Below, piece after piece: positions 14,592-64,000 of a DNA stretch of 64,000 bases. The notes beneath the pieces were generated by a model. The model did not search any database. It worked only from the letters and a program-made list of their open reading frames with translations, and was not told the origin of the DNA. The stretch is taken from the NCBI GenBank assembly GCA_029531795.1, contig JAPEIS010000009.1, positions 2,480,001 through 2,544,000 of the forward strand, read 5' to 3'. Position numbers and translations under genes: made by a program. Each line of letters starts with the position of its first letter. The stretch's first letter is position 1. The DNA is from Sclerotinia nivalis. Lineage: Eukaryota > Ascomycota > Leotiomycetes > Helotiales > Sclerotiniaceae.

Positions 14592-17069
14592 ATGTCGTCG
14601 TCGAATTCGACCCCGGTGATGTGGGATTCCAAATTCGGAAGGATTGAGATCTACACAGGCGGGAACTATGCAAACTGGTTCACAGGAGTTACCCTCGCGC
14701 TTAACGCGTCAGGAGCTCACGGCATTGTCACTGGCGACCTAATTCGTCCAGAACCCTTCCCATCAGTAAAAGCAAATCAAGCTCAGAGAGCTCAAATTGA
14801 GGCATGGGATAAATACTATCAAAGTGCGGTTCAAATCGTCACTGGCTCACTAGATAATATCCACAAGGCTCAAGTCTTGCCCTTCATCATATCTAGGAAT
14901 ATTATTGGAGCCTGGACGCTCCTCACTTCCTCACACCCGGCTCTACAACCAACCTATCGTTACAATGTGATGACGGAGTTCTACAAAGAGTCCTTCGATC
15001 CTGCAACAGATACAATTCGAGGCTTCTTCAATAGATTACTCAATTGGCAAACTCAATTGGCTGGCACTGCAGATCCTATTCCAGATTCAATTGTCATCGA
15101 CAAGGCAATCCGAACCCTCCCAAGCTCAGAATCATGGGCAGTTGCAAAGCAATTGATACAAATTCAAGCCTGGCCTCTCAATAAGATCATTGATCACCTC
15201 GGAGGTCTCGAGAAGCCTATTCGGTCTGCCGATCAGAACGCTTATGCGGCACACGATAACAATAGGGGTAGGAGCAATAAAAGAGGTCGTGGTAGAGGGA
15301 GAGGACGCGGCAGAAGCGGGAGCTCAAGAGAGGGAGGCATTTCAAAAGACAGCAATCGTATATGCTTTTGGTGTGAAAAGAAAGGCCACCTACAAGCAAA
15401 TTGCTATAAATACAAGAATGCGAAGAGTCAGGACAAAACAGGTGCAAACTCTTCGAAGGATAGCATAGAACAGACTAGCGTAGCTATCACTCATGAGAAA
15501 CAATCCTATTATGATGCTTATTCTGCTTCCCCCATTTCTGCAAACAGTGCTGCGGACTCAAATATCGTATGGTTATTGGATTCAGGTGCCTTTAGGCATT
15601 TCACTGGTTATCGAATTGATTTCTCGACCTACGAATCGTGGGATATACCTAGAAGGGTGACTATAGCCAATGGTTCGGAAGTAGAAGCTATTGGTATAGG
15701 AATTATCTATTGGGGCAAATTACGATTTCGTGATGTTTGGCACGTCCCATCCTTTCAACGACTACTCTCCATCTCTACTTTAATCGATCATAATATCCAA
15801 GTAAGATTCAATAAAGATGGAGCTGTTGGGTATACAAGCAATCTGGAGACTGTATTCATAGGTCAAAGGGAGAGGAATTTATGGGTTGTCAACGGCCCAA
15901 TTCGATACCACAATCATCACAATAATCAAGGTGGCGAATCATACGCAGCACTCGTTGGAGCAGAGGAGACGAAAGCGGAACTATGGCATCGTCGCCTATG
16001 TTATACAAACGTACGAGATGTCAAGAAACTCGAGCAAACGGCCGAGAACTTCAATATTGGTGATATTCACAAACGCGCTGGCAGACACGCATGCGAAGCC
16101 TGCCTAGCTGGAAGAATGAAAGAACACTTCAGCAAGAAAACGGACGCTAGAACTCCAGTGAGAGTAAGAAAGCTCCATGCCGATCTGTCAGGAATTCTGT
16201 CCCCATCCATTCAAAAGAATAGGTATTTTCTACTGGTCGTAGATGATGCAACACGATATATATGGGTGGAATTCACCAAAACGAAAGCAGAGAGAGAACT
16301 AGCTCAAATCCTTCTATGACTTATTCGAAGAATAGAAGTCGATACAGGAGAAACCGTCGTGATCGTACGGGCCGATAATGGAAGAGGCGAGTTTGGACTT
16401 GAATTTCAAAATACCATAATACAAGCCGGATGTTACGTCGGTCACAAGTGATCACCGCAACATATGACTAATTCAGGGAACGTGACTCATAGCCACGTGA
16501 AGGACCGCTGAGGAGCGCTAGCGGTCCAGGACAGCTCGGCTGCCCTGGCGGTCCACGAAGCTTGACGGACTATATAATCAGGATGGATTTCCTACTGTAG
16601 AGCTTCGTGCTCAAGATCAATCATTTAGTATACTCTACTATTAATTACGAATTGCAATCATTATTACAGTTACTTAAGTCCCTGCTTGACGCCTAATTAT
16701 AAACCATCTCGAGAGCCTAGAACACTTCCACGTGATCTAGACGGCAACCCTCGTAACACCGGAAAGCAATTCGAACCCTGTCCTGCATGGAAACACTCTA
16801 TGAATGGTGTAGCAGAGAAGAAGATCGGGGATATATCGAAAGCTGGCAGATCCATTATCTACGAAGCAAAGTTACCTTCGTCATTCTGGGAATATGTAGT
16901 TGCTCATAGTGTCTGGGTCAAAAATAGAATACCCACAACAACTGCATTCCCATTTGGAAAGGGGAATGATGGTATCTTCACTCCTTATCATGCGTTTTGG
17001 AAGAAAACGTATTCGTTAGATGTATTGAGACCCTTTGGGTGCAAGGCTGTAGTACTCAACTCAATTTAG
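14592..17069 (+). pseudogene. Copia-type gag-pol remnant (gag, protease, integrase), interrupted by an LTR
   Basis: The first frame (14592-16319, 575 codons) has a gag domain, an RG-rich basic patch, a CCHC knuckle (CFWCEKKGHLQANC) near residue 257, a protease site WLLDSGAFRHFTG, the GAG-pre-integrase block LWHRRLCYTN and the start of integrase (HADLSG, VVDDATRY). An in-frame TGA at 16317 interrupts it. The frame resumes with VRADNGRGEFG, is split by solo LTR A2 with a CCGGA duplication, and continues at 16759 with SMNGVAEKKIGD (catalytic Glu) to 17069. Reverse transcriptase and RNase H are absent: coding stops where a family B repeat and a mariner relic begin. The Asp-Asp-Glu integrase residues remain, but the element is dead. 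Confidence 0.88.
16431..16758 (+). mobile_element. Family A solo LTR, copy A2, inside the Copia integrase
   Basis: It runs from TGTTACGTCGG to CTCGTAACA and is flanked by a perfect 5-bp duplication CCGGA (16426-16430 and 16759-16763). Removing it restores continuous integrase sequence, so it entered after the Copia element. Confidence 0.93.
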
Positions 17070-23370: not shown

Positions 23371-23899
23371 TCTCGGAGGAGGTTGATCGGATAATAATAA
23401 ATAGTATAATAATAATACTATAATATTATTTATTGTGATAGTGGAAGACTTAGTCGTATTTAGCTTAGGAGTGATCGAATATATGAATAATAGAATATTG
23501 AAGTCAGAATTGTATATATATTGAATATTGAATTTTTATCTGCTTGCTTTTTCGAAGAATTCTTTGAAGAAAATCTTCGTATTTATAGATTTTAATGAGA
23601 TTCTACACTATTCTATGATTATAAATAAGATCGATTTAAATCGAATCTTATAGAATCATTTTATATAATAAAAGGAAATAATAACCAATAGTATTCAATC
23701 TGAGAATAGGAAAATTCTATATGCTTCCATTTCATTCTATTCCATTATAAATCATTCTGATATGATATATAATCGAAATTTTATATAATAATAAAATTTA
23801 ATAATATGAAATCATATTATTAATATATCACGTGATCATATAACCATTGGTTCGGTAAATATTATTAAGTGATTTAATAACTTATTAGGAATTCTCACA
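23371..23899 (-). mobile_element. AT-rich D repeat (solo LTR-like), copy D1
   Basis: 529 bp. On the minus strand it starts TGTGAGAATTCC and ends CCTCCTCCGAGA, with a perfect 5-bp duplication TGCAC at 23366-23370 and 23900-23904. Two further copies lie at 50198-50727 and 58170-58700. The 5-bp duplication fits an LTR-type integrase, although the TG...GA ends are unusual. No coding sequence. Confidence 0.85.
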
Positions 23900-28665: not shown

Positions 28666-31600
28666 TTAACCATTTTCTCTTGGTTCACCCTCTTCACCTT
28701 CGTCTTCTTGTTCTGCATCCTCTTGCATCCTAGTTAGATGCCATGACCTGGTTGCTATTTTTGTTTCCTCGATAAATTCGAGGGTCTTAATGATTCCTGT
28801 TTTGGTGTGAAGTAGATATTTCATAGTGAGTCGGGAGGTAGGGTTGTTTTTCTTGAATATTCTTCTTGTTGATTTGTATAACGGACAACTAAACAGGAGA
28901 TGATTAGGAGATTCTCTCTTTCCACATCTACACTTATCATTTGCTGAGATTCCGAATCGTTGTAAGTAGGATTTGAAATATCCATGACCGATTTTAAGCT
29001 GAAACAAAGCACTAATAGAGCTTCTCTTGGTGTTTTCTGGAATTCCGATCTTTGAGCTAGTCTTCCAGGGGTATATTTTCGAATAGGCCGAATTAGATGA
29101 ATAGAGAAGAGTATTCCATTCTTCGGATTTCGTCCTTTTGATATCCATTTCTAAAGAGGCAAAGCTGGTTTCGTTTGATGATGATCTTTGTTTTGTAGCT
29201 TCTTTTGCCAAAGCATCGGCCAATTCGTTTCCTTCAACAGAGGTATGCCCTGGAACCCAATTAAGGGAGATTTCTGCTCCTTTTCTGAGGAGAGTTTCTG
29301 TAGCCTTGATTGCTCTAATTTGGCAAATCTGGCCAGGGGCATCAGAAGGTGTTTTCAATCGATAAAGTCCAGCCTGATTATCCGAATAGATCTTAAATTT
29401 TTCGCCCGGTTGAGCTATAGAACTAGCATATTCGATTGCTTTAGTGACTCCAAGAAGTTCTCCATTGTAAACTAATTGATTTATACCAATATTGATTGTT
29501 TCTTTATATAAAGCTTGACCATTAGCTGAAATAGCAACGATCCCGATTCCTACTCCTATTCCTTCTAAGGTTGACGAAGCATCTGTATATATTATAATGG
29601 TATTTTTGCTTCTATTTTTGAAGACTAGATTGTGAGCGATTGCAGCTTCTTCCTTGGATACTTTGCTGATATTGACTTTATACGGGGTGTCTCTCTTCCA
29701 AGGAGGAAAATGAAAATGATCGATTTTCTCTAGCATCAAAGGATCGAAATCCTCTTCGATTGAATTTGTGATCTTTTCAAGTTGAGTAGGTTTAGGTAGT
29801 TTTCTTCGAGGGGTCATTATCGAATTTTGGTCTTCTTTCTCAGCAATTAGTTTGCGTATAATCATATTGACAGGATGAAAAGGCGAGGTCTTCAGTAATC
29901 TGAAAGCGTATTGTCTGATTCCAGCATTTAATCTGATTTCCGGGGGACACAAAGCAGCTTCCACTTCCATTGGTTTTATTGGTGAAGTTTTGAAGACTCC
30001 TAGAATCTTACGTAGAGCAAGATTCTGGAGTAATTGAAGAGTCTTTTTGAACGAGGCTTGATCTTTCCACCAGATGATTGATCCGTAATCAGCTATGCTA
30101 GTGACACATGCTATATAGAGCTGTCTTAGTGCTTTAGGGCTTAGCCCTTTCTCAGTATTAGCTAACCTGGCCATTCGATAGAATGAAGCCTTAGCTTGAG
30201 TTGCTCGAATAGCAACATGCTGTTTGAAGTTGAGGCCGGGATCGAACCATATTCCTAACCATCTGACCAATGATGAAGGTTGTACAATCTCAGAATTTGG
30301 GAGCTTGATTGAAGCATCTTTAGCGTATTTGAATGTGGAGAAATGCATTAATTCCGTCTTTGCTAAATCGAATTGGATAGCGTTTTTCTCACCGAGAGCA
30401 TAAATTTGTTTGGCTGCTCTTTCGAGGGAAAGGATGTTCTTTTTCCAGCTTGAAGAATGAGTGATCATGGCTATATCATCAATATACGAAAGATATTCAA
30501 CCGAATTCGATTGAAAGAGATCTCGAATATAGATTAGGAAAAGGATTGGTGAGATTGGACTTCCTTGAGGGATTCCGGTGTTGATTGGTTTAAAAGCTTC
30601 GGTCTGACCATCGAACGAAAGTTTGAGTAATCTTTCTTCCAAAAATGACGAGATCCATGCAATGAGGCTAATTGGAAGATTGAGGTTCTTACAGATGTCT
30701 AAAAGTCGATTTTTAGATACATAATCGAAGGCTCCTTTGACATCTAGAAAAAGAGCTGAGGTTTTCTTCTTGATTCTTGAATTCCTTTCGATTTCGGTGG
30801 TGAGCAAGATTGCTGTATCGATGGCTGATTTCTTTTGTCTTCCGCCCATTTGGGAATGATGCAATAGATTCGTAGTTTCGGCTAGAAAGCTAAGCCTTTG
30901 AGCTAGAATCCTTTCACTAATTTTGCCTAAACAATTGAGAATGGCAATAACCCTATATGCTTTTGGAATGGTATAATCTGGTTTCGAAGGTTTCTTGAGT
31001 ATCGCTCCCGTGGCTTGTTTCCAATAAGAAGGATGGTAACCAAGATTAATCAGGTTACTGAAAAGGGTAAAGAAAGCTTTTGGGATTGCTTTATAAGTTC
31101 GAATAATGATCTCCTGAGTGATTCCATCTGGGCCTGGACTCTTTCCTTTGATTTTAGCTGAACAGGCACTAAAGAGTTCATTTTCTGTGAGTTTAGGCCA
31201 ATCCCACATTTTCGATTGTTTGTATCCTTCCCATTTGGGTGCTGTAGTATTTGGGGGGGGGGGGGGAGGGAATAGAACAGATCTGAAGGCTGAGCATTTC
31301 CCTTCGAAAGAGCTTTCGAGTTGAAAGGAATTGGATCGGATGTTCGGAATCCTTTCGGTTTGAAGGTTTTTCGTGTAGAACATTGCCTTGAAGATCGTTT
31401 GGGTATCCTCTTTTTCTAGGAATTCGTTCCAATGATTCTTTTTCGCTGTTTTGATGGCTTGAAAATAATGATTCCTTGCTGATTGGTAAATTTTCTTGAA
31501 CACATCGTCTTCAGGGTATCGTTTAGCATTTTCATATTCATTTGCGAGTCGTTTTCGAAGAGCTTTCAACTCTGGAGACCACCAGGGTTTTGCCCTTTTG

Positions 31601-44648: not shown

Positions 44649-47600
44649 ATGGCCAGTTTAAATAATACTCATTTGAGCGGTCCGAGAACTTCGCTTTCTC
44701 CAAATAGCATTTTCGATCAGGCTGTGAGGAGGCTTCAGAATGGAGATCAAGATATCTTCGAGCAACACAATTCAACAAACAATATCGATATAATTCTCGA
44801 TGATGTATACAAACTGGCCAAAGAGAAACAAAACACTTGCGAAAATAAAAGATGGAAATTCTCATACGGAAAGCATCGTGTCGTATTGCGAGACGTAGCA
44901 GAGAAGGTTACCTCACGGCTTGGAAGATTTACTCAAATTGGTGATATAATTGCGAATGTGGATCCACTTCATGTTGGCTTGCCATGGGCTGGTATTCGTC
45001 TTCTACTCCAGGTACAGCAAGATCTCATTTATTTTTCTTTAGTGCAATAAGTTGTTATATTGTTATTAACAGCTACATAGGTGGTTACCTCCGACAGCTA
45101 CACTATGGGTAGTCTTTTCATGGGACTCAAGACTGTATTCGATACAATGGACAAATTGAAGGTATATATGGATTATTGGCAGAGTCTGCCATTATCAAAA
45201 GCGTTGAAGAATTTTGAAAAGTCTTTAGTCAACCTTTACGTGCTTCTGTTGAAGTTCCTTGTTTTAGCTATTCATACATACGAGATGTCTACCATAAAGA
45301 GAACTTGGAAATCTTTTTGGCAGAACGAGGAAATACTGAATTTCGAGGCCGATCGCGATAAACTCATTGGAATATTGGAACATGACGCCGAAAGCTGTGA
45401 TCGTATTCTTAGTGATTACGATCGACAAAATATGAATCATGGCTTTGACCGAATTCGCGAATCGCTCAAGAAACTGGACAAATTGCAAGATATTCAAGGA
45501 TCTATTGAATTGATTTCGGAGAAGATAGACCTAAACAGATTACCAATCGCTGAAGGCGCTGCATTTGATTCATATGAAGATCAAAAAGAATCCAAATGTC
45601 TCCCTGGCACACGAATTGAGTTGCAGCAACAAATCTTGGATTGGGCCGATGATCCTGATGGCAAATGTATATTCTGGCTGAAAGGTATTGCTGGTACAGG
45701 CAAATCTACCATTTCACGTACCGTTTCTCAAACCCTTGACAATAAGGGATTGTTAGGGGCCACTTTTTTCTTCAAGCGAACTCAAGATGATCGTAAAACC
45801 GCCAAGAAATTCGTTACCACCATCGCCCATTCACTAGCGATCAAGATGCCAGAAATAGCACAGTCTATCGCACAATCAATCAGTCGTGATCCTAATGTTT
45901 TGAATGCAAACCTACCAAAGCAATTCAAGAACTTAATCTTTGACCCAATTTCAACTTTCTCGCAGAGTTCTAGACTAGTTGTGGTCATTGACGCGCTCGA
46001 TGAATGCGAGAACGACGATGATATTCGGAAAATTATCGATCTTCTGAAACAGTTCGACAATTTATCAACGACTACTCAAAGGATAACTTTAAGGGTCTTT
46101 GTAACTAGCAGACCAGAGCTACCGATCCGACTAGGCTTTCAGAAGATTTCCAGAGAAACATTACAGGATGTTGCACTCCATGATATTCCAAGTGAGGTAA
46201 TTGAGCGGGACATATCTATTTATCTCGAGCACGAACTTAAACAGATAAGAGACGACTGGCCCGAGGAAGAAAAGTTCAACAGTCTAGTTAAAATGGCTGT
46301 CCCCTTATTCATTATTGCAGCTACAGCATGTCGTTTCATTGCGCATCGAGGAGGAGACCCACAAGATCGTCTAAATATCATCCTCGGTGGCGAGGGAAAA
46401 ATTAAGTCGAAATATGGCAAAATCTATCAACCAATCTTGGATCAAATACTCGTTAGCCAAGAAGACCCAGATGAAGACTCAGATGAAGATGAAGAGAAAG
46501 ACCTCCTTATTAAAGGATTTAAAGAGATAGTTGGGACGATCATCACTCTTGCTGATCCACTATCTATTCGTACACTCTCTAGCCTCCTCGACGTTGAAGA
46601 GGAGTATGTGAACAGGCAATTAGAACTTCTGCACTCGGTTCTTCACATTCCTACTAAAGCAGATGCTCCAGTGAAGATTCTTCATCTTTCGTTTCGTGAC
46701 TTTCTTCTTGATAATACAGAAAAGAATCCTACCCAATTCCATGTGGATGAGGCAGAAGCACACGCAAGAATAGCCCACAAGTGTATTCAAGTGATGTCTA
46801 TGCCTGGATGTCTAAAGAAAGACTTGTGTGATGTCAAAGAACCTGGGGTGCTGCGAGATAAGGTTGAGAAGTCTGAAATTGATAAGCGTTTGCCAGCTCA
46901 TGTTCAATATGCTTGTCGCTACTGGGTATATCATCTCGAGAAAAGTGGGTATAATGGTGGCGGGAATGAGATACACGACTTCCTTAACAAGCACTTTCTC
47001 CATTGGCTGGAAGCTCTTTGTTGGATGGGAAAGATTTCAGAAGCTGTCCTCGCGATAATCAGTTTGGAATCTTGTATTTCAGTACGTTAAGTGTCTTAGA
47101 AAATATTCTTAGGGTATCGACTAATTCATGTAGGTTACTCAAGAATCTCAATTGCATGCTTTTCTTCACGATGCCAAACGATTTGTTCTTCATAATCTAA
47201 TAGGAATTGAGCAGGCTCCTCTTCAAATCTATTGCTCAGGCCTTTTCTTTGCTCCTGAGAAAAGTATCATTCGAGAAACATTTCAAAAGTGTATCCCTAG
47301 TTGGATTTATAAAATATCAAGAACACGATCAAACTGGAGTGCTGCCCTCCAAACGCTTGAGGGTCATTCGAGCTCGGTTACATCAGTAGCCTTTTCGTCG
47401 GATGGTAAGGTGGTAGCTTCAGGCTCTCGCGATCAAACGATCCGGCTCTGGGACACGGCAACGGGTGCGCCCCTTCAAACGCTTAAGGGTCATTTGAGCT
47501 GGGTTACATCAATAGCCTTTTCGCCGGATGGTAAAGTGGTAGCTTCAGGCTCTGACGATCAAACGATCCGGCTTTGGAATACGGCAACGGGCGCGCCCTT

Positions 47601-48090
47601 CCAAACGCTCGAGGGTCATTTGAATTGGGTTACATCAGTAGCCTTTTCGCCGGATGGTAAGGTGGTAGCTTCAGGCTCTGGCGATCAAACGATCCGGCTC
47701 TGGGATACGGAAACGGGTGCGCCTCTCCAAACGCTTAAGGGTCATTTGAGCTCGGTTACATCAGTAGCCTTTTCGCCGGATGGTAAGGTGGTAGCTTCAG
47801 GCTCTGACGATCAAACGATCCGGCTTTGGGACACGGCAACAGGCGCGCCCCTTCAAACGCTCAAGGGTCATTCGGGCTTAAAGGCATCCTCAGCCTTTGA
47901 ACAGTACTCTATATCAAACCATTGGATAGCTGAAAGGGCAGATGGAGAAATGCGAAATATTCTTTGGCTACATCCAGATTATCGACCGTTTTGCACAGCT
48001 ATTTGCAGAGGAGTTATAGTTATAGGGTCTTCATCTGGGGGGGTTTTCTTTCTCAAAATTGAGCATGGGAATCATATATTATCTAGATGA
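44649..48090 (+). CDS. NACHT-WD40 STAND protein (fungal NLR-like receptor), three exons
   Basis: Exons 44649-45011, 45081-47081 and 47134-48090 encode about 1106 residues. Both introns (GTACAG to CATAG; GTACGT to TGTAG) are in phase 0 and restore family sequence. Order: a helical fungal NACHT N-terminal domain (about 1-270); a linker AFDSYEDQKESKCLPGTR; NACHT with Walker A GIAGTGKST near 323 and Walker B VVVIDALDECEND near 425; a winged-helix region; then four near-identical 42-residue WD40 repeats (about 860-1027) and a degenerate C-terminal blade (ILWLHPDYRPFC, SSGGVFFLKI). These proteins sense non-self through the WD40 face and drive incompatibility-type responses on oligomerisation. No HET or lipase effector is fused; the N-terminal helices may signal. 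It looks intact. An acidic DEDSDEDEEKD run lies after NACHT. Confidence 0.9.
47347..47850 (+). repeat. Four 126-bp WD40 repeats, highly similar
   Basis: Units at 47347-47472, 47473-47598, 47599-47724 and 47725-47850 differ at only a few codons, mainly the SSS/LSW/LNW/LSS and SRD/SDD/SGD/SDD positions. The near-identity at DNA level, including silent sites, indicates recent homogenisation. A fifth unit starts at 47851 and diverges after LQTLKGH. Confidence 0.93.
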
Positions 48091-48768: not shown

Positions 48769-50197
48769 ATTTGATTTGATTTGATATATTTATCGTCGTA
48801 GGCCGTAGGCCACACGTGCTTGCACGTGTAAACCTTTGCCATCTATTCCAGTTTTTGGACAAATGACGCCCGGGGGAGGCCCCCAGGTGGTATGCTAGCT
48901 AGCTAGATTATATACATTTTCAGGGGTACTAGGGCAGGGTTTACATGATTGCCGTCGTATAATTGAGCAAAGCTTTTAAAGCTTGAGATGCATTCGTAGT
49001 CCGCTTCGTTGTTACGTCGGTCACAAGTGATCACCGCAACATGTGACTAATTCAGACAACGTGACTTATAGCCACGTGAAGGATCGCTGAGGATCGCTAG
49101 CGGTCCAGGACAGCTCGGCGGTCCTAGCGATCCACGGATTACGAAGGTCTATATAATCAGGATAGGTTTCCTTATTGTAGAGCTTCGTGCTCAAGATCAA
49201 TCATTTAGTATACTCTACTATTAGTTACGAATTGCAAAATATTGTTACAGTTATTTGAGTCCCTGCTTGACGCCTAGTTATAAACCATCTCGAGAGCCTA
49301 GAACACTTCCACGTGATCTAGACGGCAAACCTCGTAACATTCGTCTACTGGATCACTACCTCTTGATCCCTCTCCCGGTCCCCTCATACGTTGATTTTTT
49401 TTTTTGAAAAATAAATAATAAAATAATAATAAAATAATGAAAAGGGGATTGATCAATTTTTAATATATTGACTAAAAGAATTGACCAAATTGACCAAATT
49501 GACCAGAATTGGCCAGCTGAATTGATCAAATTGAACGAATTGACCTAATTGATTATATGAACAGAAAACCGAGATCCTTAATCGTCATCCTGGTTATTCT
49601 GATCGTTGGGAGGGTGACGCGGGCATATGTTGTATTGGAAATTAGTTGTTTCCAACCATTCTGCAAGTCTGGCTATACCAGTGGGTGTGCCCAGAAGCCA
49701 AGGGATGGCTTCAGAAGGGGGGTTTTTTGAGAGCGTTTTGTATGCTTTGCCAATTTTACAAAAGAAAAAGTGTAAGGGGGTCTTTCTTTTTCCGCAAGTG
49801 CAGAGGGTATATGCTTTGGGGTGATGGAATCGTTCGTGATAGGCTGCGAAGTCTCTATGTTGGGATTTGATTGCTAGTATATAGCCCAATATAGCTCTTT
49901 TTATAGAGAGTAATGCTAGCTCTTCTATATGGATAATGAATAGATCCTTATAATATTGGGGATTTGTAGTGTTTTATAATTGTATGCTTGCTAGTTTGGC
50001 ATTTGTCTTTGCCAATCGTTTCAGAGAAGCTAAAGTGCAGATTGGATTAGAAGGAGGCAGGAGAGCTGCTCCTTCCTTTGCAGCTTTGTCAGCGGCCTCA
50101 TTCCCAGGGATATTGAGATGTCTTGGGGCTCATCGGATACGGATCGCCCCAGGCGGAAGGTGTGGTGATCGGGGTCTGGAGGCCCATATTTGTATGA
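48769..50197 (-). pseudogene. LINE-2b, 3' half (RNase H part and 3' UTR)
   Basis: Minus-strand coding remains run from 50197 to 49578: RPRSPHLPPGAIRIR, then LNIPGNEAADKAAKEGAALPP (RNase H end), then LHFFFCKIGKAYKTLSKNPPSEAIPWLL at the C-terminus. At least two in-frame stops are present (one replaces Trp before APRHLNIPG). The 3' UTR holds an AT-rich part and a conserved block from about 49386 down to the (ATTTG)n tail at 48769. Solo LTR A5 interrupts it. The frame is cut by D repeat D2 and continues, inverted, at 58169. Confidence 0.85.
49010..49339 (+). mobile_element. Family A solo LTR, copy A5
   Basis: TGTTACGTCGG to CTCGTAACA with a perfect duplication TTCGT (49005-49009 and 49340-49344). 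The same LINE-2 3' UTR at 61474-61757 lacks it and has a single copy of the target, giving a natural empty site. Confidence 0.95.
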
Positions 50198-50727
50198 TCT
50201 CGTAGGAGGTTGATCGGATAATAATAAATAATATAATAATAATACTATAATATTATTTATTATAATAGTGGAAGACTTAGTCGTATTTAGCTTAGGAGTG
50301 ATCGAATATATGAACAATAGAATATTGAAGTCAGAATTATATATATATTGAATATTGAATTTTTATCTGCTTATTTTTTTCGAAGAATTCTTTGAAGAAG
50401 ATCTTCGTATTTATAGATTTTAATGAGATTCTACACTATTCTATGATTATAAATAAGATCGATTTAAATCGAATCTTATAGAATCATTTTATATAATAAA
50501 AGGAAATAATAACCAATAGTATTCAATCTGAGAATAAGAAAATTCTATATGCTTCCATTTCATTCTATTCCATTATAAATCATTCTGATATGATATATGA
50601 TCGAAATTTTATATAATAATAAAATTTAATAATATGAAATCATATTATTAATATATCACGTGATCATATAACTATTGGTTCGGTAAATATTATTAAGTGT
50701 TTTAATAACTTATTAGGAATTCTCACA
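50198..50727 (-). mobile_element. D repeat, copy D2, with exchanged flanks
   Basis: 530 bp, minus orientation (TGTGAGAATTCC to CCTACGAGA). Its 5' flank is TGACC and its 3' flank TCATA, the reverse of D3. See the inversion finding. Confidence 0.9.
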
Positions 50728-50962
50728 GGTCACATGATCCTTCGTAGTTAAATATAAGGAGAAGGCTTTGCCTTCCCTTCTAGAATAATCAATCGTTTTC
50801 ACTAGTCTTTTTGCATACCCACTGTATACAACCCCCAACCCATTGTTATTCACATTAGTTCTACTATTCGAAGTTTATACAATGTAGTCTGATCAGTTCG
50901 TATCCTATTCCCCCTCGCAGCGTGCTATCGGGACGCACGTATCTCGACCTACCTCTTTCACA
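50728..50962. other. Flank inside the inverted block
   Basis: No gene recognised. It holds AATATAAGGAGAAGG-type leader-like sequence between the D repeat and LINE-2a. Confidence 0.4.
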
Positions 50963-51365
50963 CTATAAGATATATATGTGTGTGTGTGTGTGTGTTATTT
51001 TTCGTCCGAGGCTCTGTGCGAAACACAGGCCTCAAATTCCCAATTGGGACAAAGGACGCCAGGGGAGAAAGGCCCCTGGGTTTCTAACTAGCTAATCTAA
51101 GTTTACTAGTATTATATATGCTAAATGCTTCAACAGGGTTTACATGATTGCCGTTGCGTATTGAGTTAATCCCTTGGGTAGATATTTCAGCTGTCCTCCA
51201 CAATACAGTTAGATCCCTCGATTCCTGATCTCCTCTCCTTCGTTATCGCAATCGAGCTTTTTAGTATGTTTTGTTAATATAAAGTTTTTTTTTTTTTTTT
51301 TTTAAAGCTTATACAAGCTCAATCTTTCCGAACCAAAACCCAATGCCTTATACAAAGAAAACCCA

Positions 51366-51600
51366 AAAATAAAATAAAATAAAATAAAATAAAATAAAAT
51401 AAAATAAAATAAAATAAAATAAAATAAAATAAAATAAAATAAAATAAAATAAAATAAAATAAAATAAAATAAAATAAAATAAAATAAAATAAAATAAAAT
51501 AAAATAAAATAAAATAAAATAAAATAAAATAAAATAAAATAAAATAAAATAAAATAAAATAAAATAAAATAAAATAAAATAAAATAAAATAAAATAAAAT
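51366..51600. repeat. (AAAAT)47 microsatellite
   Basis: A pure 5-bp array of 47 units on the plus strand, without a visible interruption. It lies in the LINE-2a 3' UTR. The open frames through it are meaningless translations of the repeat. Confidence 0.95.
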
Positions 51601-51636
51601 CAAAGCAGTCCTTCAATCTATAAGTTGCACAGGGAA

Positions 51637-53698
51637 TCAAGGATATATATCCTGATAGAACCTTGTAGATTTGAGCCAAGCTGCTAGTTTCGCTGCTCCT
51701 TTTATGCTTCCTAAAAGATAGGGGATAGCTTCAGATGGTGGCAACTTCGAAAGGGTTTTTTGAGCGTTTCCAATTTTACAAAAGTAAAAATGTAAAGGGG
51801 ATTTTCTTTTCTTATATGAGCATAAGATATAAGGGCCTTTGTGATTGAATCGATCATGATACGCTATAAAAAGATCATTGTAGCTTAATGATGTTATGAT
51901 TGTCCATAACCTTGATCTTGCTAATTTAGCATTCGATTTAGCAATCCTTTTCAAGGAGGCAAGAATGCAGATAGGATTAGGTGGGGATGGAAGTGCTGCT
52001 CCTTCTTTAGCTGCTTTGTCCGCTGCTTCGTTTCCGGGGATATCTAGGTGCCCAAGAACCCATCGAATTCGAATTGAACCAGGGCGGGTATGTAGCAAGC
52101 GAGGTCTGAGGGGCCAAACTGTAGCTAACTTGCGGAATTCTTCGAATACAGATTGCGAGGATCCAGTCGAATGAGAGCCTAAACGTATAGCAATTTCCAG
52201 ATTATCCAAGAAAACCCAAAGGTCTGTAGCAAATCTAGCTGAGGGTAATTGAATCGCTATCTGAGCACCTTTCAAAGCTGCAATTGCTTCAGCATCGAAG
52301 ACTTCAGTATTACAGCCTAGTGAGAAAAACTGTCGATCCATTTGCAGATTGTATTGATAAATCACTGATCCATTTCCTGTAGCACTGTCCAGAGCTTCGC
52401 TTTTCGAACCATCGGAAAAGACTTGCAGATCACTTTTAGGAATCGTAGATATAAACCTTTCGAAATCCTTAGCTGCTTGTTCCTTCGAACGATCGAGAGG
52501 ACCATTGATCCTGGTTTCCGTAGTGATACGTAGTTCTTTGTTTTTCCAAGGAAGAAGTGCAATTGGATTAAAATGTTCGGCTTTTGGAAGGGCTAGGATA
52601 ATTCTTGAAAACCTTGATTCGGCGGTTCTGATACCAGCTTTAGCTAGGATATTTTTGGTTCGGACTCGAAGGGGGTGTTTAGGGTCGAGCCGAGCCGTTC
52701 GGGCCGCGAAGCTTTGGGATATCAGATTGAGCTCAATCTCAGGGGGCATCAGATTTGATTCCTTGTATAAGGCAGCAGTGTTAATTGTATGGAATACAGG
52801 AAGGATTGTTCGAGCACTAATTAGTACAATCTTATTCAAAAGTTTCAAATGTCCATCCACTTGATTCGAGGTTGTGAAGTTTAGACCTCGTTTCTTAGTT
52901 CGACCAGGCCACCAGGTTTCAACTGCAAAATAACATTTCTTCAAAATACAAGCAGTAACCGCTCTTTGAAGCAAAATTGATAGGATGCTTCGAGTTATCC
53001 TTCCAAGCGAGTGCAAAGCATTTGCAATTGTAAGGGCCTTAGCTGTAAGGATTTGAACATAAGGTTTGAAACTCAATTCCCTATCGAAATAGACTCCCAA
53101 CCATTTCAGCGGATTTGGTTTCTCCGTTATTGAAAGATTTTCTGTATGAATGATAGGGCTTTCGATATCTTTCCTAAAACCTCTGTAGAAATATATCAGT
53201 TCAGACTTCTTAGGATCGAAAGTGATCCCTTCAGATTTGCCCCAATCCAAAGCCTCCAGCATTTCAGATCGTAATTGATCACAATTAGATTGTAAACTTG
53301 AAGAAAAAGCTACTAATGCAATATCGTCTACATATCCAAATCTTCGAATAGGATTGCCCAACCAAAACAAAGGGGCTATATAAAGCATAAAAAGGATAAA
53401 CGAAATTGAGGAGCCTTGTAGCAAACCACACCCAATACTAGTACTGGACCCTATTTCGCCGTCAAGCCGAATACGAACTGATCGATTTGTCGAGAACGAT
53501 TGTATCCATCGAACTAGATTGTCAGGCCATCCTTGTTCTCTGAGTCGACGGACTAAACGTCCTGGGAGAACAGCATCAAAAGCACCTTTGATATCCATAG
53601 TTAATAAAGTAGCTTTAGAACCTGAATTCAAGGCCATTTCCACATCATGTGTAAGGCAAGTTGTGAGATCTACCGATGAACGCAGAGGAAGCGCTCCG
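51637..53698 (-). pseudogene. LINE-2a ORF2 fragment: reverse transcriptase and RNase H
   Basis: About 687 codons remain open from the truncation point to the stop at 51637. Motifs in order: LTMDIKGAFDAVLPGRL, GCGLLQGSSISFILFMLY, active site RRFGYVDDIALVAF, then RNase H with LQVFSDGSKSEALD, FLDNLEIAIRLGS, VLGHLDIPGNEAADKAAKEG, and a C-terminal LHFYFCKIGNAQKTL. The endonuclease and the first part of the reverse transcriptase are missing through 5' truncation. No internal stops were seen, so this copy is younger than LINE-2b. Confidence 0.88.
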
Positions 53699-53710
53699 CT
53701 ATAAGATATA

Positions 53711-54252
53711 GAGGACTAGTACGGAAGCCTAGTACTAGTGTGTATCACGTGTTCTAACAAAACTAGGTTGAGTTGGAGTGGTTATATAGACCCTTTTGGA
53801 GTCACGTTACCTGCCTCCTTTTTGGTACGGTATCTTATACAGATGAGAAAAACGCGTTAAGGTTAGGTTTAGGAAGTCAATCTTCTTTATTTTAGTTCTA
53901 CGCTGAACAATAATAATATTGTAATCTTTGAAGATAAGAATCAATTGAATAAACAAAGAAAAAAGATGTAGAACCATTGTACTATTTAGTTCCTAGATGT
54001 TGAAATTAGATATATATTTGAGACAACAACTATATTACTGAGCCCCTAAATATCCTTCGGTTAACCGTATTGTCTCTGGATAATTAATATTACTGTTTTC
54101 AAAAAAGGATAAAATTGATCTCAATTCTACTCTTACAATATAAAATAAACAAACTTTCGAACATTAATAATATCATCAATCTTGCAAAGGAAAAACGGAA
54201 ACTATTGAATATTTGATACTCAATAATTAGTACCTAAAAGCAATCATACGTC
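53711..54252. other. Intergenic, upstream of the membrane-protein gene
   Basis: AT-rich. No feature recognised apart from the likely promoter of the next gene. Confidence 0.45.
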
Positions 54253-54990
54253 ATGGACCAAAGAAATATACGGCACTTGTATATGTTAGCGTCAAAATGC
54301 ATTCTATTTTTATTTATAGTATTTGCATGCATTCTTGGTTACTACAGTATTTCAAGAACCATCATATTTACATGTAAGCCTTGTCACAACAACATTTCAA
54401 GAATCAAAAACCACTGCAAAGCTATCACATTACTTACAATAATAAGCCTTGTTACCGTTACCATGAATCCCGAAACCATGGACCAGGCCTACACATCCGT
54501 TGTGCAATTTATCGATTACGCAAAAACTCTTTATCGATTGCTAGAAGATTTGGGAATAAGCCAAGAATCTATTCATTACGGTATAGTTGTTGGCTTAGTC
54601 TTTTTCCTTGTCTATCTAATCCTTAGATCTGTCGTCAGATTTTTCGAGCATTTCTTCGACTCTGTCGTCAGACTTTTCAAGCATTTCTTCGACTTCCTTC
54701 GATCTTTGATAGTTGTAGGACCTCTTGGCTTACTCATTTTGATTTATTCTCTAACTTCGAATCTCGAACGAAATCAACAATTTGTTCTTGCTTTAATAGC
54801 AATTTTTCTATTCGGAATCATCGCGGTTTGTCTTATATTGAAGAGAATAGAGGGAGGATCAACAGAGATGACTAGAGTCCAAACAGTCGCTGCTAAAGTC
54901 CAAACGGACGCGACTGGAGTTCAAACAAACGCAGCTGGAGTTCGAAGAGATGCAGCTGGAGTCCAAACAGGTGCAGTTGGAATCCAATAA
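54253..54990 (+). CDS. Membrane protein with C-terminal heptapeptide repeats
   Basis: 245 residues from the ATG of MDQRNIRHLY. About five hydrophobic segments are visible: near 14-34 (CILFLFIVFACILGYY), 57-72 (AITLLTIISLVTVTM), 110-126 (YGIVVGLVFFLVYLIL), 151-168 (LIVVGPLGLLILIYSL) and 177-196 (FVLALIAIFLFGIIAVCLIL). Between the third and fourth is an imperfect duplication, SVVRFFEHFFD/SVVRLFKHFFD. The tail after EGGS consists of about five 7-residue units of the type V-Q-T-x-A-A-G, encoded by a 21-bp tandem repeat. I do not recognise the family. It lies inside the inverted block between LINE copies. A real gene is likely because the frame is coherent. Confidence 0.55.
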   Translation: MDQRNIRHLYMLASKCILFLFIVFACILGYYSISRTIIFTCKPCHNNISRIKNHCKAITLLTIISLVTVTMNPETMDQAYTSVVQFIDYAKTLYRLLEDLGISQESIHYGIVVGLVFFLVYLILRSVVRFFEHFFDSVVRLFKHFFDFLRSLIVVGPLGLLILIYSLTSNLERNQQFVLALIAIFLFGIIAVCLILKRIEGGSTEMTRVQTVAAKVQTDATGVQTNAAGVRRDAAGVQTGAVGIQ

Positions 54991-55956
54991 ACAAGTAAGT
55001 TAATCCATTTTATTTGCTATTTATATTTAGATTCTTATATTAATGAATATGATAGCTTAACAATATCGATCTTTTCCTTCGAATTCCCCTTCAATGCTTC
55101 TATACTTGAAAATATTTTCAACGATTCGATCCTGCGCATACAGACTTTATGGTAATATGGAATTTAAGTTTCTACAATTTGGGTATTTCATTTATATCTT
55201 TTGTATTATGATGCGTTATGAAAAGGGTTACGGTTTTTAAGGAGAACATTTAGTAAGGATCGAATGAGCTGAGCTAGTACAATTGGGCTGGTTATGGGAA
55301 AGTCATAAATTGTTAAGAGCTGAATAGCTCAATGACCGGATGCATTGTATATACTGGGCCATAAAATGAATCCAATTCCGAAAGCGCTTGCGGTTCTCGG
55401 AATTGGGGTTCGGATTCTAATGAATGGAGTTCCTTGCAATTTCTTCTTCCGGTGAGATTTCTCTCGTGTGATTAAATCTTCAAAACTACCTGTGCTTTCG
55501 GATCTTCAAAGAATATCTGAATGCAAATAAGTCTAATGATTAACTTTGTGATATTAGAGTGAAAATATATCCTTGCATATAGAGTATACCAATATCATGT
55601 ACTTTGAAACAATATTAGCGGCAAGGGAAAAAAAGAGAAAAAACTTAAGATAATATACTATAGCATTGTTATTGCTTGCCTATGAACAGCACTGATAGAT
55701 TATTGCTCATTTCATTTATCAAAAGAGCATCTTCTTTTATTTTCCCCTATTCATTTGTCGCTCAAACCCAACATTGCGGCTGGGTATACAGGCTCCTCAA
55801 ACTCAGATTTTCTCAACTACAGCAACACTTATTCCCACCACCTCCTCAGGTTTATCCTCAAGCTCATCGGGAAGGCAATAGTGACAACACCTACGATCGC
55901 AGCCGCGAATGCGGGATGAGGTTGAGATTTGGGGTGCAGACTTTTGGACGCGGTAG
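54991..55956. other. Intergenic, nothing recognised
   Basis: The 117-codon frame at 55676-56029 runs into the family C repeat and has no supporting motif. Confidence 0.45.
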
Positions 55957-56035
55957 TGTTGAGATATTCATGATTCATTACGTGAATTCACTAGCGTTGA
56001 CGCTAGTGCCTCGGTCGTACTTCATATAGTTCGAC
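55957..56035 (-). repeat. Family C repeat, right half, split by LINE-2b
   Basis: TGTTGAGATATTCATG to CATATAGTTCGAC. The final 13 bases (56023-56035) are the reverse complement of 48756-48768, so this is the other half of the repeat at 48663, moved by the inversion. Confidence 0.88.
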
Positions 56036-58169
56036 GGCAATGTATTGGACTTAACCTTCCTTTTAGGCCCTTATTTAGCCATCACTACCCTCGCCGAACA
56101 TCTAGATTGTACTTCAGATTATAAACCCTTGAAAACTATACTATATTGGAATTGCTGTGGTCTCAATCCAATACAATGGCTTAAATTAAGTACTCTAAAT
56201 GAAGAACTCTTTAAAAAACTTTTGGATATCAATTTATTCAACTTTCTCGATATTTCAATCCAGCTCGATCTTCCCTTCGATCTAGATCTGCTAGCGTTCA
56301 AACTGATTCAAGTCTTTCAAAATGCCTATATAGGCTCTGTTAATCGAATCTCGAAAGGCCCTTTACGACAACCTTGGTGGAACGAAGTCTGCAGATTAGT
56401 TGTTACCGAAAATCGATATATTAATACAATGGATTCTAAATGCTTTCTTTGAAAAGTAATCCGTAAAGCAAAACAAATCTTTTTCATTTCGAAAATCGAT
56501 AAAATTGAGAATATGAATGATGTCTTCAAAATGGCGAAATGGTATCAAATTATAGGGACTTACTGCATTCCCCCTTTGATCGATCCAATAAATTTCATGA
56601 TAGTCAATAGTATTGAAGAAAAGAGAACGTTATTCGTTAATAATCTGCTTACAAGTATTGTAGAGGTAGATGATATCATTTTCGATATCCCTACAAATCC
56701 TATCCGAATTATCCTGTTTTTAGGTATTATTATGCAAGATCTGGAAAAGGCTATATTACAAGCTGGTAATACAGTCTTTGGTGTGGATGAGATTCCTATT
56801 AAAATTCTACAAATCGTATGGACATCAATCAAAGAAATAGTCCTCCAATTATTCCAGAAATGCCTCGATATTGGACACCATCCAGAATGTTTCCGATTAA
56901 CCACTGTAGTGATCATCCCAAAACCCAAAAAAGCAGACAGCACCAGTCCGAGATCATATCGGCCGATAGCTCTACTATCTGTTTTGGGTAAAGGTCTGGA
57001 GAGGCTTATAGCAAGAAAAATGTCCTGGTTGGTTATAACCTGCAAAGTTCTAGCAAGCCAACAATTCGGGGCCTTACCATTGCGATCCTTTGTCGATCTT
57101 ACTACATGCGTAACCTACGATATCGAATCAGCCTTAAAATCAGGATTGAAAGTTATTTTATTTATTATGGATGTAAAAGGAGCCTTCGATGCAGTACTAC
57201 CAGGCAGACTTATCAACCGCCTTAGAGAACAAGGGTGGCCGGACAATCTCGTAAAATGGGTACAATCCTTTGCCACCAATCGCTCCATCAAGATCCGTCT
57301 GGACGGGGAAACTGGCCCAAGAATAGCTCTGAGGTGCGGTCTCCCACAAGGATCACCTATCTCCCCGATTCTATTTATGCTCTATATAGCCCCTCTCTTC
57401 TGGATGGGAAATCCTGGAAGCAGATTCGGATACGCAGACGATATCGCTCTACTAGCCTTCTCAAATAATCTGCAAGAAAACTGTACATCATTAACTTCCA
57501 GTATGCAAGAAGCTCTGAATTGAGGAAAAACTGAAGGTATCACTTTCGACCCCAGAAATTGAGCTGAATCTAGCAACCCAAGCTTATACAGCACGCACTG
57601 CAAGATTAGATCTATATCACTCTCTATTCATTAGAACCAAGATTATAAGATCATTACGAAATCGGATCCCCAGCTTTCGCTTTGCTAAATCTATCTCAAT
57701 ATTATTACCTGCCGAACAAATCAATCCATTGGCCTTTCCCCTTTGGGAATACACCGAAACCCGTCTTCAAACAGAAACACATATTTTCGGGCCTTTGGGA
57801 AGATCAAAAGCTCAGGCAACAACTGATTTCAAGGCCTTTTATACTACCATCCCGAGAAACGATATACAGATCTTCTCGGATAGCTCAAAAAGCGAAACCA
57901 AAGATAAAGCTACAGAAGGCGGATATATTGTAACTCAATTCGAAACACAGATAATTCGGCATTCCTTTTCATTAGGCTCGAATACAGAGGTCTTTGATGC
58001 AAAAGCGATTACAGCATTATATGAAGCCAAAGCTGCTATAGCTTCCTCCTACACAGGACTAGCTTCAGATCTTTGGATCTTCCTGGATAATTACGAAGTG
58101 ACACTACAACTAGGATCCTATTTCAATGGGTCTTCTCAATCTGTTTTTAAGGAATTCGCAGATCTCATA
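56036..58169 (+). pseudogene. LINE-2b, 5' half (endonuclease end, reverse transcriptase, RNase H start)
   Basis: It starts with the end of an endonuclease domain (LAEHLDCTSDYKPL), runs through GPLRQPWWNEVCR, then the reverse transcriptase: SYRPIALLSVLGKGLERL, FIMDVKGAFDAVLPG, LRCGLPQGSPISPILFMLY and active site SRFGYADDIALLAF (Ala replaces the usual Val/Ile). A TGA replaces Trp after MQEALN near 57521. An internal deletion near 57550 joins GITFDP to PEIELNLATQ, removing about 180 residues relative to LINE-2a. RNase H begins (IQIFSDSSKSETKD) and the frame is cut at FADLI by D repeat D3. The remainder is at 50197-48769. Confidence 0.85.
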
Positions 58170-58700
58170 TGTGAGAATTCCTAATAAGTTATTAAAACAC
58201 TTAATAATATTTACCGAACCAATAGTTATATGATCACGTGATATATTAATAATATGATTTCATATTATTAAATTTTATTATTATATAAAATTTCGATCAT
58301 ATATCATATCAGAATGATTTATAATGGAATAGAATGAAATGGAAGCATATAGAATTTTCTTATTCTCAGATTGAATACTATTGGTTATTATTTCCTTTTA
58401 TTATATAAAATGATTCTATAAGATTCGATTTAAATCGATCTTATTTATAATCATAGAATAGTGTAGAATCTCATTAAAATCTATAAATACGAAGATCTTC
58501 TTCAAAGAATTCTTCGAAAAAAAATAAGCAGATAAAAATTCAATATTCAATATATATATAATTCTGACTTCAATATTCTATTGTTCATATATTCGATCAC
58601 TCCTAAGCTAAATACGACTAAGTCTTCCACTATTATAATAAATAATATTATAGTATTATTATTATATTATTTATTATTATCCGATCAACCTCCTACGAGA
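58170..58700 (+). mobile_element. D repeat, copy D3, with exchanged flanks
   Basis: 531 bp, TGTGAGAATTCC to CCTACGAGA, with flanks TCATA (58165-58169) and TGACC (58701-58705). Nearly identical to D2 but inverted. Confidence 0.9.
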
Positions 58701-58705
58701 TGACC

Positions 58706-59523
58706 TAATGCCCATGAACTAGCTACGTATGTGGCCCTAGCAATCCAACTTTCTCACAATAGCTCGACTATAGAATATTAGCTACACACAATAATATATG
58801 CTTGAATGCCCTTCCAACAAGTTTAATAAAAAATGCGCAACTTCAACTTAATCACTTTGTAATCGTTTCCGTCGTGTTTACTGGTGACCTACGCAGGGAT
58901 CTACAGATATCAAATATATCGCCAGCATCTCTCCGTTTGCAGACTCATACTCTTGATCTCTTTTCGAAAATGTATATACGGTCGTCACATGACATCCGTA
59001 ATAGGCTTAGCGTTCGTTAGAATAACGAACGCTCCTCTATTTAAGATTCAACCTTTCAATAGCTTTAGAAGAATAGCAATAAATAATTAAGACTACTGAA
59101 TACACTGATCGTATATGCCTTTAATGTGTTGCAGCGTTTCGCTCCATATAGAAGGTCACGATCCGTATTCTAGTCGAACCAACAGAAAAATTACCTTTTG
59201 AACCTTCTTTTTAGGGTTGTTGATTGGCATATTAAACCTCAACAATTCGATCATTTCAAGGAAGCAAAACAGGGCTATCGTAGTATAGACTCACTGTCCG
59301 CGGAACTACCAATTTATGTGTAGAATCCCCGACTTTTGACTTGCCTTTAGTATCGACCCTTCGTTATGTCAAAACGTCCCCTTTCAGAGATTTCAATCTA
59401 GTACAAGAGCCTCATCTTTAGGAATAAGTTTAGCGCCGCCTTTCTATCAAAACTTTAAATCTTTCGATATCGAACTTCTTTTTTGACTTCGAACCTTCGA
59501 AATATTCATACTTCTTATAGTTA
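58706..59523. other. Intergenic, 5' side of the Gypsy-like remnant
   Basis: A hairpin GCGTTCGTTA/TAACGAACGC lies at 59009-59031. No LTR boundary could be fixed. The region may include the leader of the following gag gene. Confidence 0.4.
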
Positions 59524-62047: not shown

Positions 62048-64000
62048 CTATAGGCTTTCCCCCATCCCAAGTGATCGAATATGCTTCTTCAAAGCATCGT
62101 AGGGCAAAGCTTTCGTAGGTATATCAGCCGTTTGCTCATTGCCATTAATCCATTCGATCTTGAGCTTTCCAGGTTGAACCATTTCCCTTCGTACAAACAT
62201 GTATTGAATATCGATATGCTTGGAGTGGTTGTGAAACTTGCTGTCGTGCATCCAATCTACACCGCTCTTGTTGTCGCAATAAAGGGTAGGAACGAAACAT
62301 TCTTCATACTCTCGTTCACCCAAATCAAAGGCTAACTTCTCCATCCATCTAACCTCCTTTAAGCCATCTAAAGCTGCAAATATTTCAGCATCCATCGTGC
62401 TAGTTGCAACTGTTTTCTGCCTACGCGAATGCCAGTTTACAGCACCACTACATCGAATGACTGTCATGCCTTGAAATGAGAGTCTATCCTCTTCACTTCC
62501 CCATGTAGCATCTGTATAGACAGAGTACTCGATTGAACTTGTTCCCCTTTCCTTCTTGTAAATTATTCCAAAGGTAGTAGTTCCGCAAAGGTATCGCATT
62601 AGGGTTTTCGCATATTCAAGGTAGGAGTAGGATGGGTTTTGCATGAATCTGGCTAGTTGACCGACTGCATATGCAATATCGGGTCGAGTGATATTCGAGA
62701 GGTAGATCGTAGATCCTACAATTTGACGATAAAGAACGATATCATCCTTCCTATCCATCAAGTTCTCCTTGTCTGCCATTAACACAGTCTTCGCAGGAAG
62801 TGGAAGCTTCACAGGATTCGCTCCACTTAGGTTGAGTCGTCTCAACAACATATTGGTATAGAGGGATTGATGGATTTTCGTTCTTCGATTCGACCGATCT
62901 CTTCAATTTGTATTCCAACAAATGTATCAACAGGGCCTAGATCCTTCATTGTCCATTTCTTCTTTATTTGTTGCTTGACTTCATTAACCTGATCTTGATT
63001 ACCTACTATTAGCATATCATCAACATAGAGTCGAACAGATACGTTATCTTTAATGAACAGATTTGGATCTGAATACGCTGGCACAAAGCCTAACTCAGCA
63101 TAAAACTTCTTTACAGCCTCAAACCATACTCTAGGAGCTTGTTTCAATCCATAAAGGGACTTGAGAAACCTCAAATAAACTGTCTCATTCCTTTCACGCA
63201 TTCCTTTAAGTTCAGGAAAAGCTTCTTCTAGGAAATCTGGAACCTCCATGTAGATCTCCTCTTCCAGTTTCTCATTTAGAAAGGCAGTATCGATATCCAC
63301 ATGTTCCATTTCCAGATCTTCTGCAGTAGCTTTCACAATCAGACTTCGGAGAGTTGCGAATCTCAACACTGAGGCAAACGTTTGAAAGTAATCAATACCA
63401 GCTTTCTGCTCAAAGCCGCGTATCACTAAGCGGGCCTTCTTTCTCACAACAACCATCAAGTGGTTGTACTTCTTCCTGAGCACCCATCTTGCAATGATTG
63501 GCCGTTGACCTTTTGGGAGGGCTTTTACGATCTTGAATGTACCCATTTTAGCTAGAGAAGTTGCTTCATCAACTATTGCTTTGTACCATCCAGGAGCGTC
63601 CTCCTGCATAGCATCCTCAAGCTCGATTGATTCAAACGGAAATGTAGGAACTCCAAGGGAGGTGGTATTCTCATCGTCGATGTGGACAGCTTTCAAAGCA
63701 CTTACTAGCTGTACCACAGTCTTTGTAAAGACTTTACGGCCACCTTCAGCATCACTACCGACCACCTTGCGTTTCGACCAAGAGCGAGAGCTTTTACCGG
63801 CCTCTTGCCGAACTCTAGTGGCATCATTCGAAGGGACAGCCCTATCGCGACTGTATTCTTGATCTTCAGGAGTGACGATTCGAACTCGTTTGTCTCCTTT
63901 CTCAGGAGGGACTGGGCTCTTTCCACAGTATCCAGGTTTAAGTGCTTCATTTTCAGGAGGGACTACGCTTTCTCCGTAGTATCCGGCAGCCTTTGGGCCT
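62048..64000 (-). pseudogene. Copia pol remnant: reverse transcriptase and RNase H, partial at window edge
   Basis: The minus strand is open from the window edge down to about 62870 and again to 62048. Motifs: a linker with two GYYGES/GYCGKS-PVPPE units, WVLRKKYNHL, VDIDTAFLNEKLEEEIYMEVP, FLKSLYGLKQAPRVW, active site VRLYVDDMLIVG, then RNase H/C-terminal motifs YRQIVGSTIYLSNITRPDIAYAVGQLARFM, YTDATWGSEE, STMDAEIFAALDGLKEVRW, LYCDNKSGVDW and TADIPTKALP. A single-base frameshift near 62870-62890 separates the two frames; otherwise the domains are complete. It represents the part missing from the 14.6-kb Copia remnant but is not obviously the same lineage. Confidence 0.9.

Follow-up and report, generated by a model that had tools for sequence, protein, structure and literature searches.

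Exchanged target duplications and rejoined insertion sites point to a 7.4-kb inversion between two solo LTRs in Sclerotinia nivalis

In a 64,000-nucleotide stretch of the Sclerotinia nivalis genome (contig JAPEIS010000009.1, positions 2,480,001 to 2,544,000; called the window below), we found a block of 7442 bases that was very probably flipped by a crossover between two near-identical long terminal repeats (LTRs) in inverted orientation, D2 and D3. Both are solo LTRs, as judged from their letters, and the target duplications at their edges are exchanged between them. The window corresponds to C9:2480001-2544000 of a 50.3-Mb genome in 31 contigs; coordinates without a contig name are those of the window. 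The features that carry the argument are the following.

50193-50197, minus strand: TCATA target duplication (TATGA on the plus strand), 3' flank of D2; letters checked, matches 58165-58169
50198-50727, minus strand: D2, predicted solo LTR of a Ty1/copia-type retrotransposon, TGTGAG...CGAGA, 530 bases
50728-50732, minus strand: TGACC target duplication (GGTCA on the plus strand), 5' flank of D2; letters checked, matches 58701-58705
58165-58169, plus strand: TCATA target duplication, 5' flank of D3; letters checked
58170-58700, plus strand: D3, predicted solo LTR of the family of D2, 531 bases
58701-58705, plus strand: TGACC target duplication, 3' flank of D3; letters checked
50728-58169, no strand: proposed inverted block, the interval between D2 and D3, 7442 bases, delimited by the exchanged duplications and both empty sites
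23371-23899, minus strand: D1, third predicted solo LTR of this family in the window, duplication intact, GTGCA on both sides

Read in element orientation, D3 is TCATA/TGTGAG...CGAGA/TGACC and D2 is TGACC/TGTGAG...CGAGA/TCATA, so that each LTR carries on its 3' side the five bases found on the 5' side of the other. Alignment of the two gave no substitution and a single gap, one A in a homopolymer; they are two homologous copies in opposite orientation on the same chromosome. D1 is flanked in element orientation by GTGCA on either side (written TGCAC in the initial annotation). That annotation had pointed out the near-identity and inverted orientation of D2 and D3, the crosswise flanks and the intact duplication of D1. 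All of this held, and the letters and coordinates of the flanks were right to the base.

The repeat belongs to a large family. Its start was found 137 times in the genome with at most three mismatches (66 forward, 71 reverse; control 0 and 0). Many copies form same-direction pairs spaced by about 5.24 kb, with a constant inner edge after the first LTR and another before the second, and a copia-type reverse transcriptase (RVT_2, PF07727) is encoded between such pairs, for example at C16:26036 / 29814-30527 / 31279. Because the same sequence ends complete elements and PF07727 lies between the paired LTRs, D1 to D3 are identified from sequence as solo LTRs of a Ty1/copia-type family. The copies examined start with TG and end with GA; LTRs usually end in TG...CA, which is not required for membership. 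Many LTRs of the family show zero substitutions with respect to D3, and the family is therefore young. A single 20-base match to the LTR start in viral contigs (L031) stood alone, without further similarity to the window or the loci, and was discarded as chance.

An inversion predicts that the flanks, when rejoined with one copy of the duplication, form a continuous sequence at both sites. The repeats on either side of the breakpoints allowed us to examine this in other copies of the same host repeats. One of the sites lies in a long interspersed nuclear element (LINE), the other in a further repeat:

56045-58169, plus strand: split LINE, part inside the block, RVT_1 in 56513-57523; ends at D3 (56045 is where the first open frame, rather than the LINE, starts)
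49600-50192, minus strand: split LINE, other part, outside the block, from sequence matches to LINE copies (49600 marks how far the search reached and is not a boundary of the LINE)
50733-50860, minus strand: repeat split at the TGACC site, inner part (50860 is the limit of the stretch searched)
58706-58761, plus strand: repeat split at the TGACC site, outer part (most matches end at query position 740, i.e. 58761)

The rejoined TCATA site gave 26 match rows, in which 16 distinct places crossed the junction out of the 29 LINE loci given (L033-L061, one of them the window's own half). Eight of these places, with 349-362 of the 363 bases aligned, were 79-87% alike; the remaining eight were 65-77% alike. 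Over the 44 bases shown around the junction, 14 of the 16 aligned free of gaps, and L046 and L051, both distant, had a gap; at C14:571 kb, TCATA was present once and 43 of the 44 bases agreed. Since the rejoined site is continuous in other LINE copies, the LINE of the window is split: its parts end at 58169 on the plus strand and begin at 50192 on the minus strand, with the broken ends 8 kb apart and on opposite strands. At the rejoined TGACC site all 40 places scored, from 360 candidates, had a match of 95-99% that began in the inner flank and ran through the junction, in most of them as far as 58761. A separate first search from the TGACC side (40 scored of 396 candidates) did not see the repeat at the junction; apart from the window itself, every place scored aligned with a different part of the query. 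When the outer side of this site alone served as query, it matched, besides itself, from base 53 on. Inversion of 50728-58169, as claimed in the initial annotation, is thus borne out at both rejoined sites, to judge by the continuity of other host-repeat copies there. The exchange of duplications on which it was said to be proved is confirmed; for the exchange alone, this wording was slightly strong.

The order of events may be pictured as follows. Two copies of the young Ty1/copia-type element would have landed about 7.4 kb from each other and in opposite orientation, the first within a LINE at the target TCATA and the second within another repeat at the target TGACC, and each insertion would have produced a 5-bp duplication of its own. 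Both copies would have shrunk to a solo LTR by the usual LTR-LTR recombination, either before or after the inversion. Non-allelic homologous recombination, a crossover between the inverted and practically identical LTRs, would have flipped 50728-58169, exchanging the duplications and leaving the LINE in two parts on opposite strands. We infer the crossover as mechanism, this order of events and the reality of the assembled order in the organism; crossover is favoured because one step explains the exchanged flanks, the rejoined sites and the split LINE.

A census of solo LTR flanks in the genome put the exchange into proportion. Identical 5-base flanks were present in 48 of the 58 solo LTRs with both flanks read (26 from loci, 29 of 33 of a further set, and D1, L092 and C2:443659 entered separately), non-identical ones in the remaining 10. 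All nine complete elements with both ends read had matching outer flanks; for L007, L012 and L030, each an LTR of a complete copy, the mate was unread, and they stand outside these nine. The census leaves out L087 and three solos with no 3' end found, the duplicate locus L088, 37 of the 137 LTR copies (unless read as loci) and the unfetched LTRs of complete copies. One of the 10 exceptions, L010, has matching flanks if two bases were lost at the LTR start.

Two further crosswise pairs emerged among the exceptions. L091 (C1:3636708, minus strand) with ATGAG/GGAGC and L092 (C1:3723724, plus strand) with GGAGC/ATGAG form an exact crosswise pair in inverted orientation with 87 kb between them. L092 apparently holds a foreign insertion of about 1.85 kb, and its 3' end was taken as the LTR end at C1:3726105; from position and direction, both ends probably belong to one LTR. 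L093 (C1:3801394, minus strand) with AGAAG/CAGGT and L095 (C1:3889502, plus strand) with CAGGT/AGGAG, again inverted and with 88 kb between them, agree crosswise in 9 of 10 bases. One rejoined site of L093/L095 was continuous in 40 of 40 places scored (105 candidates) at 86-95%, with a length difference of three bases. For the other L093/L095 join and both joins of L091/L092, the rejoined-site search listed no match, which neither supports nor opposes an inversion there. In all three pairs, D2/D3 included, the 5' ends of the LTRs face each other. Both additional pairs lie on contig C1 (C1:3636180-3726105 and C1:3800866-3890030), about 75 kb from each other. The mismatched solos at C2:1990382, C5:2095940 and C10:2509970 found no partner in a pattern search for exact matches with no mismatches allowed; their LTR ends are intact, and they may mark deletions or translocations or have changed partners.

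Flanks eroded by mutation might happen to agree crosswise, and unmatched flanks do occur in some solos. With a chance model built on the base composition of these 48 identical flank pairs, an exact double exchange in one given pair has p of about 2.7e-6. For any exact pair among the 36 pairs that the nine unexplained mismatched solos can form, the chance is about 1e-4, and for two such pairs about 5e-9. Coincidence would furthermore leave two continuous rejoined sites unexplained; these refute it, and we consider its probability negligible. A match at 9 of 10 bases in any pair occurs by chance at 2.5e-3, and for this reason the pair L093/L095 rests partly on the rejoined-site result. A permutation test, in which at least one exact swap occurred in 8833 of 20000 shuffles, was dropped since its null deals the real duplications among the copies and thereby itself creates swaps. 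LTR elements integrate complementary DNA instead of moving by their ends, which counts against an aberrant or hybrid-element transposition in place of a crossover. Such events also invert DNA beside transposons, but in Delprat et al. (2009, PMC2775673) they are described for transposons that move by their ends, and the two-way exchange of duplications is there the prediction of crossover; we hold this explanation to be very improbable.

A more serious concern is the assembly itself. If the genome carried the original order and the assembler had flipped the 7.4-kb piece between identical 530-bp inverted repeats, exactly the observed pattern would result, and the two LTRs are indeed identical save for the homopolymer. 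An assembly of 50.3 Mb in 31 contigs suggests, however, that long reads were used, and such reads would span 530 bp. The two further crosswise pairs, one with an apparent insertion of about 1.85 kb in an LTR and the other with a one-base difference in its duplication, are harder to blame on confused repeats. We therefore regard an artefact of this kind as unlikely. Three points nevertheless weigh against an inversion by LTR crossover. D2 and D3 differ only within a homopolymer, which leaves the LTRs with no marker for the crossover; the pattern rests on one assembly of one isolate; and the flank rule is not absolute, with 10 of 58 solos lacking identical flanks and three of these lacking a found partner. 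A real inversion by crossover might also be recurrent, with both orientations present among nuclei, progeny or isolates, which would extend our explanation rather than replace it. The inverted LTRs D2 and D3 are almost the same in sequence and separated by 7.4 kb, and a region at the mating-type (MAT) locus of S. sclerotiorum flips in a similar way, according to Chitrampalam et al. (2013, PMC3574095). Against recurrence stand the single orientation in a single assembly and the fact that near-identity is no distinction in this family, where many LTRs are equally alike; nor did a 245-amino-acid frame in the block match any Pfam family suggesting a switch. We consider recurrence unlikely.

The inversion between D2 and D3 is unusually well documented, but it is an event of a known kind. 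In yeast, ectopic LTR-LTR recombination between Ty/delta (LTR) sequences rearranges chromosomes; the recombination is as proposed here, the host and the element family are others. The closest parallel in pattern is inversion 2z3 of Drosophila buzzatii, generated by Galileo, where the report (Delprat et al. 2009, PMC2775673) describes two opposite-orientation copies at the breakpoints with exchanged target duplications, as for D2 and D3, finds the target only once at either breakpoint of the uninverted order, and reads the exchange as crossover between inverted repeats. As described there, 2z3 involves a DNA transposon with 7-bp duplications, both copies are chimeric, and the comparison was made with real uninverted chromosomes. 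In S. nivalis we are dealing with an LTR element, 5-bp duplications and 7.4 kb, and the uninverted state was read from other copies of the host repeats and not from an uninverted chromosome. Closer in host is the MAT region of S. sclerotiorum, where each meiotic generation sees 3.6 kb flipped between identical inverted repeats of 250 bp (Chitrampalam et al. 2013, PMC3574095). Both cases come from the same genus, are of kilobase scale and have short identical inverted repeats, and both are attributed to non-allelic homologous recombination. The MAT repeats are, as the same text has it, 250-bp pieces of MAT1-1-1 without transposon sequence that flip every meiotic generation (PMC3574095), whereas D2/D3 is known from one orientation. 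We found no report of the D2/D3 inversion among the listed titles and abstract openings of literature on the S. nivalis genome, genome assembly, solo LTRs, Sclerotinia and inversions.

What the D2/D3 pair offers is a transposon-mediated inversion that is accurate to the base, is documented within a single genome and was verified at the two rejoined sites. A census of flanks is also a simple method: when solo LTRs with mismatched duplications are matched up crosswise, past rearrangements can be catalogued from the same genome, and no second one is needed. A genome-wide count of such inversions, of which a single LTR family appears to have recorded several here, would be worthwhile. That an inversion between short inverted repeats alters the mating-type locus in Sclerotinia raises the question whether ordinary LTR pairs flip often. 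Speculatively, and with little confidence, solo LTRs of this copia family might act as dispersed inversion sites in S. nivalis, six of the 58 (three pairs) recording inversions of 7-88 kb, and the D2/D3 pair might still flip as the MAT repeats do.

The block holds two open frames besides its part of the broken LINE:

51637-53643, minus strand: open frame, LINE-2a of the initial annotation; RVT_1 above the curated cut-off, RNase_H weak and below the cut-off
54253-54990, plus strand: open frame of 245 amino acids, the membrane protein of the initial annotation; protein search

Both frames had been placed inside the block, rightly; the part of the broken LINE had been left unmentioned. A protein search with the 245-amino-acid frame found, apart from the frame itself, a copy in S. 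nivalis (C13) and another in Stromatinia cepivora; no Pfam family matched it. A search for a second near-identical copy of the block (query 53680-55640) found none, the 40 places scored of 169 candidates comprising one 82% paralogue (C13) and otherwise short pieces. The block also contains a long (TAAAA)n tract at 51361-51610, in which 46 units were counted.

Elsewhere in the window, a short repeat at 49010-49339 (starting TGTTACGTCGG and ending CTCGTAACA) has TTCGT on both sides, and similar copies occur near 16431, 17820, 4223 and 18603. The segment 61475-61863 resembles the surroundings of this repeat (97% over 347 bases, on one side), the repeat itself being absent there, and the window therefore contains both an occupied and an empty site. 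Outside the window, C28:7709-13335 and C9:2621423-2627050 gave equal match scores at offsets that coincide to within a base, and C28, a small contig, may duplicate a section of C9. The window further holds, at 62842-63765, an RVT_2 frame (copia-type reverse transcriptase) that belongs to a different element. At 45081-48090, a NACHT (NPHP3_N) frame is followed by a separate WD40 frame, in which a repeat search detected repeats 126 bases apart and 70-93% alike; we take this layout to be the build of fungal NOD-like receptor (NLR)-like proteins.

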